Source: Candidatus Acidulodesulfobacterium ferriphilum (lineage in GTDB: Bacteria > SZUA-79 > Acidulodesulfobacterales > Acidulodesulfobacteraceae). From it: 64,000 bases of DNA. The notes beneath the pieces were generated by a model that did no database searches, had not been told where the DNA came from, and saw only the letters and a list, made by a program, of their open reading frames with translations. Position numbers and translations under genes: made by a program. Location: contig SGBD01000002.1 in NCBI GenBank assembly GCA_004195035.1, positions 124,001 through 188,000 of the forward strand, written 5' to 3'. This document shows positions 3,926-61,859 of this stretch, in pieces (within the stretch, counting starts at the first letter, position 1; every line of letters begins with the position of its first letter).

Positions 3926-4702
3926 ATGAACGGCGGTTCGTATGTTGCCTTAAGCGGAATAATCGCCGAGGGGCAAAAGCTTAATATGATTACGAATAAT
4001 CTGGCTAACGCAAATACCGTCGGATATAAAAGCAGCGGTTCTCTTTTTGGCGAATTTTTATCGCGTAAAGCTATCCAAACTTTAGATTCGAAAAGCTTTA
4101 AACCGTTTGTCGATAAGGCTTATCCTGTAACTCTTAACAGTTATATAAATAACTCTCAGGGACCCCTTAAAAAAACAGGCAACAGGCTTGACCTTGCAAT
4201 AAACGGGGATGGGTTTTTTGTTTTACAAACGCCGGATGGAATTAAATTTACAAGAAACGGGGTGTTTTCTCTAAACAGCGCGGGAGAGCTTGTAAATCAG
4301 AATGGTTTTCCTGTCCTAAACATTCGCAAAAGACCTATTTTTTTAAATGAAAGGGGTTCAAATATTACTATTACAAAGAACGGCATAATAAATCTGACAG
4401 ACCCCCTGACAAACAATGAAATGTATTACGGACAAATTCTTACGGTAAATTTTAACGGTCCGAAATATTTGTCGAAATACGGCGACACCATGTTTTCGGC
4501 AACCAAAAATTCGGGAGCGCCGGCCTTAAATAAAAACCCTGACATCTTGCAGGGTTATGTCGAGGAATCCAATGTAAACGAAATTAGGGACATGGCGGAA
4601 ATGATAAATGTTTCTCAGGTTCACAACAATATGGTAGAAGTGTTAAAGTCATATTCAAATGTAAATAATACTACGATTAACACTATCGGCGCGGCGGTTT
4701 AA
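3926..4702 (+). CDS. flgF: Flagellar basal-body rod protein FlgF
   Basis: A 258-residue rod/hook-family protein. The N-terminus (GGSYVALSGIIAEGQKLNMITNNLANANTVGYK) is the coiled flg_bb_rod domain with the family ANANTVGYK signature. The central part has NRLDLAINGDGFFVLQTPDG and TRNGVFSLNSAGELV, typical of FlgF/FlgG, and the C-terminus has the flg_bbr helix (GYVEESNVNEIRDMAEMI). It forms part of the proximal rod. It is the first gene of the plus-strand flagellar run, preceded by a sigma-54-type promoter. It is assigned as FlgF rather than FlgG because flgG follows and is much closer to the FlgG consensus. Confidence 0.9.
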   Translation: MNGGSYVALSGIIAEGQKLNMITNNLANANTVGYKSSGSLFGEFLSRKAIQTLDSKSFKPFVDKAYPVTLNSYINNSQGPLKKTGNRLDLAINGDGFFVLQTPDGIKFTRNGVFSLNSAGELVNQNGFPVLNIRKRPIFLNERGSNITITKNGIINLTDPLTNNEMYYGQILTVNFNGPKYLSKYGDTMFSATKNSGAPALNKNPDILQGYVEESNVNEIRDMAEMINVSQVHNNMVEVLKSYSNVNNTTINTIGAAV

Positions 4703-4710
4703 CATGATTA

Positions 4711-4766
4711 AATCACCGTTAGATATCCTCTTCCTTTATTGGGAGGAGGGTTGGGGGAGGGTGATT
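4711..4766. repeat. Imperfect inverted repeat in the flgF-flgG spacer
   Basis: AATCACC at 4711-4717 pairs with GGTGATT at 4760-4766, and inside it a CCTCTTCC segment (about 4727-4734) faces a G-rich GGGAGGAGGG segment (4741-4750). The spacer can therefore fold into one long hairpin between the flgF stop and the flgG ribosome binding site (GGAGG near 4791). There is no T-run, so it is a poor terminator candidate; it could be an mRNA-processing or stability element, or a degenerate repeat. Confidence 0.4.
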
Positions 4767-4801
4767 ATCCCCTTCAAATTGTAATATATGGAGGTTAATA
4801 A

Positions 4802-5587
4802 ATGAGGGCGCTATGGACGGCTTCCACCGGTATGGAGGCGCAGCAATTGGAAATAGACAACATTGCAAACAATCTTGCCAATACCAATACGACAGGCTAT
4901 AAAGAATCGAGAGTTAACTTCGAGGATCTTTTTTATCAAACCATTAAGTCTCCGGGGGCGTACTCTTCCGAATATACTCAGGTGCCGACGGGCATTCAAA
5001 TCGGCTTAGGAACCAAGGTGTCTTCTATAGAAAAAGAATTTACGCAGGGCGATCTCCAGCAAACATCCAATCCCTTGGATGTTGCAATATCGGGGCAGGG
5101 TTTTTTTCAGATACAGATGCCGGATGGCGAGGCTGCATATACAAGAGACGGTACTTTTCAAACAAATTCCCAGGGTCAGCTTGTCGATGCAAACGGTTAT
5201 CAACTTGTGCCGCCTATTACTATACCGCCAAACGCTACCTCCGTTACCATTTCGCAAAACGGTACGGTATCGGCGGTTGTTTCCGGTCAGACAAATCCTG
5301 CTCAGATTGGTACGATAACGCTTGCTAATTTTATTAATCCCGCAGGCCTTAACAGCATCGGACATAATCTTTATCTCCAAACTTCGGCTTCAGGCGTCCC
5401 ACAGATTGGAACCCCGGGACAGAACGGCATTGGAACGGTTCAGCAGGGTTTTCTGGAAATGTCCAATGTAAATTTGGTGGGTCAGATGGTATCTATGATA
5501 ACAGCCCAAAATGCTTATACCATCGATTCAAAAGCGATAACCATCGCAAATCAGATGTTGCAAACGGCGGCTGGATTGATACCGTAA
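4802..5587 (+). CDS. flgG: Flagellar basal-body rod protein FlgG
   Basis: A 261-residue distal rod protein. MRALWTASTGMEAQQLEIDN is almost the family consensus N-terminus; ANNLANTNTTGYKESRVNFE and NPLDVAISGQGFFQIQMPDG are the conserved middle motifs; the C-terminal VNLVGQMVSMITAQNAYTID is the FlgG helix. FlgG builds the distal rod across the periplasm. The start follows a clear GGAGG about 8 bases upstream. flgA, flgH and flgI (P- and L-rings around this rod) follow directly. Confidence 0.97.
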   Translation: MRALWTASTGMEAQQLEIDNIANNLANTNTTGYKESRVNFEDLFYQTIKSPGAYSSEYTQVPTGIQIGLGTKVSSIEKEFTQGDLQQTSNPLDVAISGQGFFQIQMPDGEAAYTRDGTFQTNSQGQLVDANGYQLVPPITIPPNATSVTISQNGTVSAVVSGQTNPAQIGTITLANFINPAGLNSIGHNLYLQTSASGVPQIGTPGQNGIGTVQQGFLEMSNVNLVGQMVSMITAQNAYTIDSKAITIANQMLQTAAGLIP

Positions 5588-57769: not shown

Positions 57770-58552
57770 TTACTCGTTAATTTTCTTTTTAAATATCAGC
57801 TCGGCAACCTTTTTATTTAATATCCTGTACTGGCCCGACGGTAAATCCCCGATATAAAGTCCTCCGATAGCAACCCTTTTAAGCGTTATGATTTTAAGGT
57901 TGAAAAACTCTAAAAGTCTCCTTATCTCCCTATTCTTCCCATGATTTAAATCTATGGATAAAATAAATTTTACAGGTTTTTTACTTATAACTCTGACATT
58001 TTGAGGCTTCATTAAGCCTGTTTCTTCAAGATTTATTCCCTTTTTTATCTTTTTTAGAAGTTCATCCGTAAGTTCGCCCTTTACCTCGACTATATAAGAT
58101 TTAACGACATTAAATTTGGGATGGGTTGCCTTGTATGTAAAATCACCGTCGTTGGTTAGTAAAAGTAAGCCTTCGCTCATAAAATCAAGCCTGCCTACAG
58201 GGAATATATGTTTATGGCTTAAAGTCTCCTTTTTAATCAATTCCATTACCGTTTTAAAACCTGACTCGGATTTTACGGCAGTAATATAGCCTTGGGGCTT
58301 GTTTAACATTATGTAAACAGGGGGTTCCATTTTATAAACGATTTTTTTTCCGTCAAAGTTTACCTCGTCGCCGGGATTTACAAATGTTGCGAGATTTTTA
58401 ACGCTTTTACCGTTTATAATAACCCTGCCTTCTTTTATTATACCGTCCGCTTCCCTTCTTGAAACACCTGTTCTTGCGGCAAGAAATTTATTTAATCTTA
58501 AATCTTGCGTCAAATCGGATTTTTTTGCGGTTTTAGGCTTTTTTTCTATCAA
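57770..58552 (-). CDS. rluB: RluB-type 23S rRNA pseudouridine synthase
   Basis: A 260-residue protein. The S4-type N-terminal domain ([20 protein letters not shown]) is followed by the catalytic [19 protein letters not shown] with Asp, and [20 protein letters not shown]. It modifies 23S rRNA. The start overlaps the thiG stop by four bases, so it is coupled to the thiamine operon, although in many bacteria it follows scpA-scpB. Confidence 0.93.
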
Positions 58553-59358
58553 AATACGATTCCCTCCATTTGCGTTGAGGCTTGCGCATAAAGTTTCATA
58601 GGAATGCGGCCGGATAAATACGCAAGCCTGCCCGCTTCTACCCCTTGCTTCATTGCAAGCGCCATTTTTACGGGATTATTCGCCCCGGCTATTGCTGTAT
58701 TAATAAGAATCCCGTCAACGCCGAGTTCCATCGTCTTGCAGGCATCGGACGCCGTCCCTACCCCCGCATCTACTATGACAGGCACGGAAACCGTTTCTTT
58801 TATTATTTTGATATTATAAGGGTTTCTAATTCCTAAACCGGAACCGATAGGCGAAGCAAGCGGCATAACGACCGGACACCCCGCATCCTCGAGTTTTTTA
58901 GCCAAAACAGGATCGTCCATCATATACGGCATAACCGTAAAACCCTCTTTTACCAATATTTTTGCGGCCTTAATTAACTCCTCGTTATCGGGATAAAGAG
59001 TTTTTGCATCGCCGATGACTTCAAGTTTTACCATGTCTGTCTTAAAAACATCGAGTTCTCTCGTAAGCCTGAGTGTGTTAACGGCATCCTCTGCGGTATA
59101 ACACCCTGCCGTGTTCGGCAAAAGCGTAAACCTGTCCAGGTCGATATACGACAGCATATTGTCTTTTGCGTTGAAATCAATCCTCCTGACCGCCACCGTT
59201 ATAATCTCGGCGCCGGAGGCAATCGCGGAGTCTTTCATGGTTTGAAAATCCGGATACTTTCCCGTTCCGACTATGAGCCGCGATTTAAATGTATATTTTC
59301 CAATTTTTAAACCGTCATCCTGCGGCATTTCATCATCCTCTTTTATTGCGCTATTCAT
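58549..59358 (-). CDS. thiG: Thiazole synthase ThiG
   Basis: A 269-residue TIM-barrel enzyme. [46 protein letters not shown] (Schiff-base Lys), [19 protein letters not shown] and [20 protein letters not shown] are ThiG motifs. It forms the thiazole ring from DXP, ThiS-thiocarboxylate and dehydroglycine. GGAGG lies 8 bases ahead of the ATG. It follows thiS and is coupled to rluB. Confidence 0.97.
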
Positions 59359-59460
59359 TTATATACCTCCGTTCTTAATTAAATTGCCGGTATTAACCCG
59401 GCATTAGCTTATGCAAATTTAATTTGTTATGTATTCCGATATTTTTTAATATTTTGTATT

Positions 59461-59673
59461 CTAACCGCCGGGCGCAATAGTTACCAAATCGACTTTATCG
59501 TTTTCGTTTAAAAGGAATTCCCTATAACCGCTCTTCGAAACTATTGTTTTGTTTACGGCGACAGCAGTACTTTTTATGTCTAATTTAAGTTCGTCTATCA
59601 AATTTTGAACTGTTATGCCGTCCGAAACATCAAATTCTTTACCGTTAATATCTATTTTCATAAGTTTTTTCAT
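59461..59673 (-). CDS. thiS: Sulfur carrier protein ThiS
   Basis: A 70-residue ubiquitin-like protein: MKIDINGKEFDVSDGITVQN, TAVAVNKTIV and NDKVDLVTIAPGG with the terminal Gly-Gly that is adenylated and thiocarboxylated. It starts inside the end of the CofH-like gene (29-base overlap), so both are translated together. thiF is not in the window. A small GC hairpin (59385-59402) stands between thiS and thiG. Confidence 0.95.
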   Translation of the reverse strand: MKKLMKIDINGKEFDVSDGITVQNLIDELKLDIKSTAVAVNKTIVSKSGYREFLLNENDKVDLVTIAPGG

Positions 59674-60748
59674 AAATGCGATTATATAATGTATCTCTCC
59701 TGACGGGAAACTTGCCGGATTTTTTTATCAAACTTATGATTTCGTCTTCAGGTAAATATTCGCCGAATTCCCCTCCTGCGCTTTTGGTGATATTTTCTTC
59801 CATTAAAGTCCCGCCAAAATCGTTAACGCCGCATTCAAGAGATTTTAAAGCGGCGAGAATGCCGATTTTAGGCCAGCTTGTCTGAATATTTTTGAAATTA
59901 TCTAAGTAAAGCCTTAAAATTGCATAAAACCTGAATACTTTATCCTGCATCAGCGCCGAATCTACCCTTTTTCTAAGAGATGTTTTGTATGAAATAAACG
60001 GCAATGCAATAAACTCCGTAAACCCGTTTGTTTCGTCCTGAATTTGCCTTATCAAACTCAAATGATAAACTATATCGGGGTTTGACTCGATATGGCCGAA
60101 AAGAATAGTAGCTGAGGTTTTAACGCCGCTTTTATGCGCCGCTTTTATAATTTCGACCCAGATATCCGTGTTTATCTTTTCGGGGCAGATCTTGCTTCTT
60201 GTTTCTTTCGCCAGAATCTCTGCCGCAGTCCCGGGCATTGAATTAAGCCCCGTATCGGCTAATTTTAAAATAACATCCTCGTAAGATTTATTTGTCGCCT
60301 TCGAAAGCTCGTAAATTTCCTGCGGCGAAAATGCGTGAATATGCAAATCGGGAAAATTATCCCTGACGGTCTTAATCAGGCTAAAATAATAATCGGGCTT
60401 TAATTCCGGATTTATTCCGCCCGTTACGCATATTTCATCTATGCCTATCTTTTTGCCTTCCGAAATTTTTTCGAGTATTTTATCATAATCGAGCAAAAAC
60501 GAGTCTTTTGATTTTTTCGTCCTTTTATAGCCGCAAAACCTGCAGTTTAAACCGCATATATTTGTAAAATTTATATTTCTGTTAACGACATAAGAAACCC
60601 TATCAAAATTAATTTTTTGGTTTTTTATGCCGGCGATGCGGATAATATCCTGTCCCTTCTCTTTTTCTTCCAATAGGCAAAGAAGTTCCTCGTCATTGAT
60701 TCTTTCAAAAGATAAAGCCTTTTCAAGTACGGAATTTAATTCAGTCAT
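59645..60748 (-). CDS. CofH-family radical SAM enzyme in the thiamine operon
   Basis: About 367 residues from ATG 60748; ATG 60763 and TTG 60769 are alternatives. NINFTNICGLNCRFCGYKRT carries CxxxCxxC. CofH-type motifs are LNSMPGTAAEILAKETRSKI (PGTAAEI, where MqnE/MqnC have PGGGAEI), WVEIIKAAHKSGVKTSATIL and GFTEFIALPFISYKTS. CofH cleaves tyrosine, releasing dehydroglycine, while joining the hydroxybenzyl group to a ribityl-pyrimidine in F420 synthesis. Here it is the first gene behind a TPP riboswitch and overlaps thiS, with no F420 gene nearby. I infer a role in thiazole synthesis, perhaps replacing ThiH. Confidence 0.85.
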   Translation of the reverse strand: MTELNSVLEKALSFERINDEELLCLLEEKEKGQDIIRIAGIKNQKINFDRVSYVVNRNINFTNICGLNCRFCGYKRTKKSKDSFLLDYDKILEKISEGKKIGIDEICVTGGINPELKPDYYFSLIKTVRDNFPDLHIHAFSPQEIYELSKATNKSYEDVILKLADTGLNSMPGTAAEILAKETRSKICPEKINTDIWVEIIKAAHKSGVKTSATILFGHIESNPDIVYHLSLIRQIQDETNGFTEFIALPFISYKTSLRKRVDSALMQDKVFRFYAILRLYLDNFKNIQTSWPKIGILAALKSLECGVNDFGGTLMEENITKSAGGEFGEYLPEDEIISLIKKSGKFPVRRDTLYNRIYEKTYENRY

Positions 60749-60853
60749 ACATTTATAGCGCATGGTCAAAGACTACGCTTTATTATCAAATTGTTTAATA
60801 AAATATTTTAGGAGAATAGCTTAGCGGCAAAGGAAAGAGAAAAACGGCAGTCT

Positions 60854-60875
60854 TAAACTCCGCCAATGGCGGTTT
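60854..60875 (-). terminator. Possible riboswitch-controlled hairpin ahead of the CofH-like gene
   Basis: AAACTCCGCC (from 60855) and GGCGGTTT (to 60875) form a hairpin; read on the minus strand it is followed after about a dozen bases by GTTTTTCTC. It lies between the TPP aptamer and the start codon, where an intrinsic terminator of the expression platform would be expected. The T-run is displaced, so this is tentative. Confidence 0.4.
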
Positions 60876-60907
60876 ATACGCTAATAATATCTTAATTTTA
60901 ACGCTTT

Positions 60908-61036
60908 CTTGCTTCCCTACGCCGGCATTATCCGTATTCAGGTTCAAAGGGTTGCGAGTTAAAGGCTTGTATGTTATTTAATCTAATCAAACCTGCCGCA
61001 ACTCGACTCTCAGCCAAATTATTAAAGGCACCCCTA
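60908..61036 (-). promoter_or_regulatory. TPP (thiamine pyrophosphate) riboswitch
   Basis: Minus strand reads AGGGGTGCC (61027-61035), GGCTGAGAG (tctcag at 61008-61013), a variable P3 arm with GAGTTGCGG, then CCCTTTGAACCTGAA and GGATAATGCCGGCGTAGGGA (60914-60933). These are the conserved cores of the THI element: the CTGAGA half binding the pyrimidine and the GGATAATGCC-GCGTAGGGAA half binding the pyrophosphate. It precedes the CofH-like-thiS-thiG-rluB genes and should shut them off when TPP is abundant. Confidence 0.93.
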
Positions 61037-61100
61037 TTTAAACATCGGTTAAATCTGTTTGTTTATATCTTACTTATATTTTTTATATATATAGTATAAC

Positions 61101-61859
61101 TTATTTAATAACCCCAATCAAGAAATTCTTATGTTTGTTATTATATACTTTTACGCATGCAACCTTTACGGTTAAAATATCATTTTTCGCCGTTAAAGGA
61201 ACAAAGTAGTATTCCAAAAAGACAGATTTTTTAATATGCCCAAATGTACCGGTTCTTTTATTGATGAAACTTTCGGCATCATTTTCGGGCATAATTAAAA
61301 AATTAAAATCTCCCGCATTTTTATGGACAATGGTTAAATTGTGAAACAGGTAATAGATGTTGCCGTGCTTGATTTTGATAAAATTAATATTCCTGCGGGT
61401 TTTCATTCTATTTTCTATAGTCCTGTCAGACCTGTAATATGACAGATAAAACCCGTGCTTTTTAAAATTATAACTGCTGATGTCCGCCCTGATATATTCC
61501 TTAAAATATTTTACCGAACTTACAAACTTCATTAACTTTTCTAATTTTTGTTTATCCTCATAAAAAAGTTTTTTCCATAAAAACGGATTGTACCTGTCAT
61601 GCATATATTGAGCGGGATTGACAATCTTTATGTATGTCGTAATATCGTCTTTATTAACCGGCCGGTTTGCCGCTTTTAGATATAGCGCGTAAATAACCGG
61701 ATCGGAGGCGTAAACGCCATGGCAGATCCCATTAACGGAACCGGCAAAAGCCCTGCTGCCGAACGCCGTATTCAGAATAGAAATATTCAAAACAACCGTC
61801 AAGAATAAAAAAACCGTCCAAAATATCCTTTCCCTCGTTCTGCCGATTTTTTCTTTCAT
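61101..61859 (-). CDS. Exported protein of unknown function
   Basis: A 252-residue protein. The N-terminus has a TM/signal segment (IFWTVFLFLTVVLNISILNT). The mature part is basic and aromatic with YLSYYRSDRTIENRMKTRRN and YLFHNLTIVHKNAGDFNFLI; paired Cys not evident. I do not recognise a family. It lies 65 bases upstream of the riboswitch on the same strand but is not part of the thiamine operon. Confidence 0.6.
   Translation of the reverse strand: MKEKIGRTRERIFWTVFLFLTVVLNISILNTAFGSRAFAGSVNGICHGVYASDPVIYALYLKAANRPVNKDDITTYIKIVNPAQYMHDRYNPFLWKKLFYEDKQKLEKLMKFVSSVKYFKEYIRADISSYNFKKHGFYLSYYRSDRTIENRMKTRRNINFIKIKHGNIYYLFHNLTIVHKNAGDFNFLIMPENDAESFINKRTGTFGHIKKSVFLEYYFVPLTAKNDILTVKVACVKVYNNKHKNFLIGVIK

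Follow-up and report, generated by a model that had tools for sequence, protein, structure and literature searches.

Which enzyme supplies dehydroglycine to the thiazole synthase ThiG in a bacterium that carries a thiazole operon but none of the enzymes recognised for that step? The question is raised by a locus of Candidatus Acidulodesulfobacterium ferriphilum, located in a stretch of 64,000 nucleotides of contig SGBD01000002.1 (assembly GCA_004195035.1, positions 124,001 to 188,000 of the forward strand), hereafter the window. There, on the minus strand, a thiamine pyrophosphate (TPP) riboswitch precedes a gene for a radical S-adenosylmethionine (SAM) protein of the CofH family, here named CofHL, followed by thiS, thiG and a pseudouridine synthase gene (Table 1). 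To our knowledge, only two dehydroglycine sources are known for bacterial thiazole synthesis, ThiH and ThiO. CofH, for its part, fragments tyrosine, and the remainder of the amino acid is released as dehydroglycine. We propose that CofHL is very probably a tyrosine lyase that the radical SAM enzymes of the CofH family have lent to thiamine synthesis, where it would provide dehydroglycine to ThiG as a non-homologous replacement of ThiH. The sequence-only reading of the window had already pointed to this protein as a possible source; the lack of alternative enzymes, the linkage to thiS and the grouping in one clade, described below, support that suggestion.

Two well-described reactions frame the proposal. 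ThiH passes tyrosine-derived dehydroglycine to ThiG (PMC9046217), and CofH is described as taking a hydrogen from the tyrosine amine and fragmenting tyrosine to a 4-hydroxybenzyl radical (PMC8498797). The source genome (1.87 Mb, 97% complete) was searched for the families concerned. Neither ThiH (best score 32 bits, cut-off 380) nor CofG (60 bits, cut-off 213) was found in it, the top match being CofHL in both cases; ThiO was not found either (19 bits, cut-off 251), and CofD gave no match. Hence the earlier remark that the window holds no thiH, thiO or F420 gene is correct, and the absence of ThiH, ThiO, CofG and CofD extends to the whole genome. ThiC (604.5 bits, cut-off 460) and ThiE (140.3 bits, slightly below the cut-off of 145.1) are encoded together elsewhere (L020 8834-10855), and therefore the thiamine pathway needs a thiazole branch. 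Among the steps of that branch looked for, only a recognised dehydroglycine source is missing; at the head of the thiazole operon stands a gene of the CofH family, in whose known reaction tyrosine is fragmented first. Nearly all genomes of the phylum contain a second ThiC-family gene (G000:C4:165065-166300, L225, in the source genome, with a frame similar to CobB, cobyrinate a,c-diamide synthase, close to it); instead of ThiC, its product may be an enzyme for the lower ligand of B12 (Bza-type).

The phylum is represented by 30 species genomes, the same set as for the class, which by taxonomy codes form one family and six genera; 19 of them are high-quality. CofHL and ThiG occur in the same 27 genomes, including all 19 of high quality, and ThiC in 29. 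None of the 30 reaches the cut-off for ThiH, ThiO or CofG, so that a thiH or thiO combined with a full F420 pathway, which the sequence-only reading had named as the sign of an ordinary CofH, was not encountered. The association with thiS expected in relatives was seen in 26 of the 27 genomes, where CofHL adjoins thiS-thiG in two gene orders: CofHL-thiS-thiG in four genera (CofHL-thiS-thiG-rlu in its full form) and thiS-thiG-CofHL in one genus (g2, seven species). Each of the 26 testable thiSG operons is preceded by a TPP riboswitch; one genome (G027), whose contig ends before the site, lies outside this count. The strong part of the evidence is the joint presence of CofHL and ThiG together with the total lack of alternatives in complete genomes. 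Second full-length copies of thiG were observed near contig starts in two genomes (G018:C34:316-1050 and G019:C11:330-1064; L192 and L169); no TPP riboswitch was found at these two loci, and the copies are possibly contamination or duplicated contigs.

The thi-linked proteins form a single clade, as the phylogeny proposed in the sequence-only reading was meant to ask, with a Shimodaira-Hasegawa approximate likelihood-ratio (SH-aLRT) support of 100 in a tree of 119 rows and of 100/100 in a bootstrap tree of 58 rows. This clade groups with CofH against MqnC and MqnE (support 99/98), and its place would be with or beside CofH, either as a sister or inside it. The clade has a long stem and a mean identity to CofH of about 41%; the stem of cyanobacterial CofH is equally long, so the length is no proof of a new function. 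About 85,000 species genomes were scanned for relatives outside the phylum sample, and the best 80 loci were considered. Six of these, at 64-77% identity, all belong to the same group and all are thiSG-linked; below them there is a gap, and the other 74 fall at 38-48% identity. Within flanks of up to 6 kb, thiS or thiG was found near none of these 74 CofH loci, while CofG lies beside 50 of them, mostly just upstream (three were confirmed by NCBIfam). More distant thi-linked relatives than those among the best 80 could exist.

By family model CofHL is a CofH. It scores 402.6 bits against the NCBI equivalog-domain model TIGR03551 (F420_cofH; cut-off 374.1), and three of its relatives score 398-415 bits. 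It fails the models of ThiH (TIGR02351, 30.4 bits, cut-off 380), MqnC (362 bits, cut-off 428.1) and MqnE (330.2 bits, cut-off 434.6). The CofH motifs noticed at the outset, CxxxCxxC and PGTAAEIL, are present in all members of the clade, the cluster site of CofHL being C72xxxC76xxC79. In the alignment, 78 columns have a conservation of 95% or more among CofH proteins; 73 of them are kept in CofHL, compared with 59 in MqnC and 51 in MqnE, and CofHL invariably has the CofH-only residues C114, T181, A182, H226, T251, E252, L256 and K301. The fixed differences, with the CofH residue first, are F81Y, A105G, Q116T and T219S. Position 116, which precedes the GG motif, is Gln in 70 of 71 CofH proteins and in MqnC and Thr in every CofHL; the aligned ThiH of E. 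coli has Thr and so does the MqnE of P. heparinus. No description of the active site of MqnE or CofH was found in the open-access literature. The AlphaFold model of CofHL (predicted local distance difference test score 92.4) has MqnE (6xig) as its nearest solved fold, with a template-modelling (TM) score of 0.88, and ThiH is further away (TM 0.69-0.72). In ThiH the tyrosine-binding residues R300, T299, S318, S321 and R306 are located in the C-terminal part (PMC9046217). Profile alignment of ThiH with CofHL (hhalign) covers only residues 15-178, along 148 N-terminal columns; the C-terminal halves do not align, and those tyrosine-binding residues could not be mapped onto CofHL by this method. 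Since only the N-terminal part aligns, CofHL is not a divergent ThiH.

From these elements the following course may be drawn. At low TPP, the riboswitch would permit expression of the CofHL-thiS-thiG transcript. The 5′-deoxyadenosyl radical generated by CofHL would then abstract a hydrogen from the amine of L-tyrosine, and cleavage of the bond between the α and β carbons would release a 4-hydroxybenzyl radical and leave dehydroglycine (2-iminoacetate). The latter would be joined by ThiG with deoxyxylulose phosphate and the ThiS thiocarboxylate to give the thiazole, to be coupled by ThiE to the ThiC product. The benzyl radical could either be reduced to p-cresol, as with ThiH, or be added to an acceptor, as with CofH; this second option stays alive because the CofH residues are almost completely conserved in CofHL. 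In this scheme we infer which substrate CofHL uses, which reaction it catalyses, that its product passes to ThiG and what becomes of the benzyl radical.

Several points weigh against the proposal: (i) in the sixth genus (G028) the riboswitch-thiS-thiG-rlu block is intact and CofHL lies 37 kb off, without a riboswitch; (ii) where genomes are incomplete, the linkage of the two genes by itself accounts for part of the joint occurrence of CofHL and ThiG, and for the same reason their joint absence from three genomes that are 85-86% complete is weak evidence; (iii) the 30 genomes are one family and therefore represent one evolutionary origin, not several; and (iv) some of the CofH residues that CofHL retains may serve to bind the acceptor diaminouracil, for which a pure lyase has no use. 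In one alternative, CofHL would add the 4-hydroxybenzyl group to 5-amino-6-ribitylaminouracil as CofH does, with ThiG using the dehydroglycine co-product and the adduct being waste or a metabolite. We regard it as unlikely. The 73 of 78 retained positions, the preservation of nearly all CofH-only residues and a score over the CofH cut-off speak for it, but CofG, which uses the adduct, is in none of the 30 genomes, CofD was not found in the source genome, and every CofHL has Thr in place of the nearly invariant Gln that stands beside the GG motif in CofH, as does the aligned E. coli ThiH. In a broader form, CofHL would couple two pathways, placing the hydroxybenzyl group on the diaminouracil precursor of riboflavin or on another acceptor without CofG and giving dehydroglycine to ThiG; this too seems improbable. 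If true, a single enzyme under TPP control would serve both the synthesis of vitamin B1 and the formation of a new product derived from tyrosine. As far as ThiG is concerned, the dual-product alternative is a sub-case of the tyrosine-lyase proposal.

A CofHL that belongs to thiamine metabolism or to TPP control in another role, with the dehydroglycine of ThiG coming from an unrecognised enzyme or arising spontaneously, appears distinctly unlikely. In its favour, the substrate of CofHL is a deduction, and ThiO-like oxidases that score far under the cut-off occur in a few genomes. Such matches are limited to three of the 30 genomes, reach at most 73 bits against a cut-off of 251, by which they are ruled out as ThiO, and are not seen in the source genome at that threshold. 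Moreover, the known half-reaction of CofH yields precisely the missing intermediate, and the linkage of CofHL to thiSG survives a change of gene order. It is very improbable that CofHL is an ordinary CofH making FO (7,8-didemethyl-8-hydroxy-5-deazariboflavin), for F420 or a photolyase antenna, and placed in a thiamine operon by chance: TIGR03551 would indeed annotate it as CofH, but the sample lacks CofG throughout and the source genome CofD, and of the 74 outgroup CofH loci 50 have CofG beside them, and none has thiS or thiG. FO for a photolyase without F420 is ruled out by the same absence of CofG from all 30 genomes. Finally, that CofHL is an enzyme of the futalosine pathway to menaquinone which stands here by chance is scarcely credible: it does share a superfamily with MqnC and MqnE, and their models match it at 330-362 bits, but it remains under both cut-offs, has PGTAAEIL instead of PGGGAEI, falls in a separate clade and coexists with separate genes for MqnC (506.9 bits) and MqnE (467.5 bits) in the source genome, by which its assignment to either is ruled out. 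The futalosine pathway therefore has its own enzymes, and most relatives in the phylum likewise carry MqnC and MqnE as genes of their own.

The riboswitch announced by the sequence-only reading at 60908-61036 was recovered by the covariance model with slightly wider limits. Its score lies just under the Rfam gathering score of 54.3, so a default Rfam scan does not call it; a long P3 insert is probably behind the low value, and the orthologous thiSG leaders mostly score 62-76 bits (maximum 75.6). In the minimum free energy (MFE) fold, the leader contains a pyrimidine run, UUUUCUCUUUCC, able to base-pair with GGGAAGCAAGAAAGCG on the 3′ side of the aptamer, and a similar run is seen in orthologous leaders. 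This pairing is possibly an anti-P1 expression platform, through which control would be exerted. The start of CofHL is uncertain, the candidates being TTG 60769, ATG 60763 and ATG 60748. The overlap between CofHL and thiS is real, but the 29 bases first attributed to it count from the first ATG of thiS; since the alignment with E. coli ThiS begins at the second ATG (59661), this is probably the start and the overlap probably amounts to 17 bases. The succession of thiS and thiG is as previously read. ThiS ends in Pro-Gly-Gly in every relative checked; ThiG is 44% identical to that of E. coli, and 36 of 36 ThiG copies have the motif KLE(V/I) surrounding the Lys that is presumed to be catalytic. 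The last gene, which shares 4 bases with thiG, does encode a pseudouridine synthase with an S4 domain, but the name rluB given to it was too specific, as only the general model TIGR00093 is passed; it is probably a passenger of the operon. Upstream of the riboswitch the window encodes a DUF4852-type protein (61101-61859), and a similar one lies upstream of the riboswitch in G028 (L186:3079-3507). The operon has therefore kept its position on the chromosome, also in the genome in which CofHL no longer belongs to it.

Table 1. Features of the thiazole operon in the window, in the order of transcription
Feature	Coordinates	Strand	Evidence
TPP riboswitch aptamer	60897..61045	-	RF00059 covariance model matched over its full length (1-105), 51.1 bits, E 3.6e-9 (cmscan)
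Leader, aptamer to CofHL start	60770..60896	-	MFE fold
CofHL, CofH-family radical SAM protein, 374 aa	59645..60769	-	TIGR03551, 402.6 bits
thiS, sulfur carrier, C-terminus ...PGG	59461..59673	-	TIGR01683, 61.5 bits (cut-off 37.45)
thiG, thiazole synthase	58549..59358	-	PF05690, E 2.4e-109
RsuA/RluB/E/F-type pseudouridine synthase	57770..58552	-	PF01479 (S4), PF00849, TIGR00093 145.4 bits

Ten radical SAM proteins of the source genome were classified by NCBIfam. Elsewhere in the genome a LipS1/LipS2 pair (two-protein lipoyl synthase) is encoded at L034:1416-2525 and 4357-5358 (G000:C2:227-231 kb), both members scoring below the curated cut-offs. Six radical SAM genes are clustered within 13 kb (L035:880-13993, G000:C3:53.9-67 kb), one of them being nearly duplicated at L036:1225-2502. 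A NifB-like protein of 311 amino acids (L033:1441-2376, G000:C1:825 kb; 333.8 bits, NifB cut-off 343.65) suggests nitrogen fixation or a related cofactor.

Should the proposal be correct, a CofH-family enzyme would be the third source of dehydroglycine and would clearly exemplify the replacement of an enzyme by a non-homologous one, and one radical SAM half-reaction, the fragmentation of tyrosine, would have been redirected between cofactors. The NCBI CofH model labels as an F420 enzyme what is likely a thiamine enzyme, and therefore the F420 capacity of the phylum would be over-called and its thiamine capacity under-called. The conserved differences, Q116T and the others, provide a short list of candidate positions separating a lyase from a transferase. 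No link of CofH to thiazole synthesis or to dehydroglycine was found in the open-access literature, subscription journals being outside the search, and a paper on Candidatus Acidulodesulfobacterales gives thiM and iscS transcripts for thiamine and leaves the CofHL gene unmentioned (PMC6776010).

The arrangement of CofHL differs from that of each known system. With CofH (TIGR03551; 5-amino-6-(D-ribitylamino)uracil--L-tyrosine 4-hydroxyphenyl transferase, of FO synthesis) it shares family, fold, CxxxCxxC and PGTAAEIL and, as proposed, the first half-reaction; unlike CofH, it belongs to a phylum without CofG and a source genome without CofD, and is linked to thiS-thiG under a TPP riboswitch. With ThiH (TIGR02351; 2-iminoacetate synthase) it shares the place in the thiS/thiG operon, the radical SAM chemistry and the proposed product, but it fails the ThiH model and the C-terminal tyrosine-binding part of ThiH is outside the alignment. 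ThiO (TIGR02352; glycine oxidase) would fill the same step, but it is an unrelated flavin adenine dinucleotide (FAD) oxidase acting on glycine with O2, and it was not found here. MqnC and MqnE, of the futalosine menaquinone pathway, are sister families, and MqnE (6xig, 6xi9) offers the nearest solved structure, but their motif is PGGGAEI, their clade is another and their genes stand separately in the same genome. CofHL lacks two features that define a working CofH, the CofG partner and the F420 pathway, and falls outside the sequence definition of ThiH. CofH by sequence and ThiH-like by place and predicted product, it would be a CofH-family dehydroglycine synthase for thiazole.

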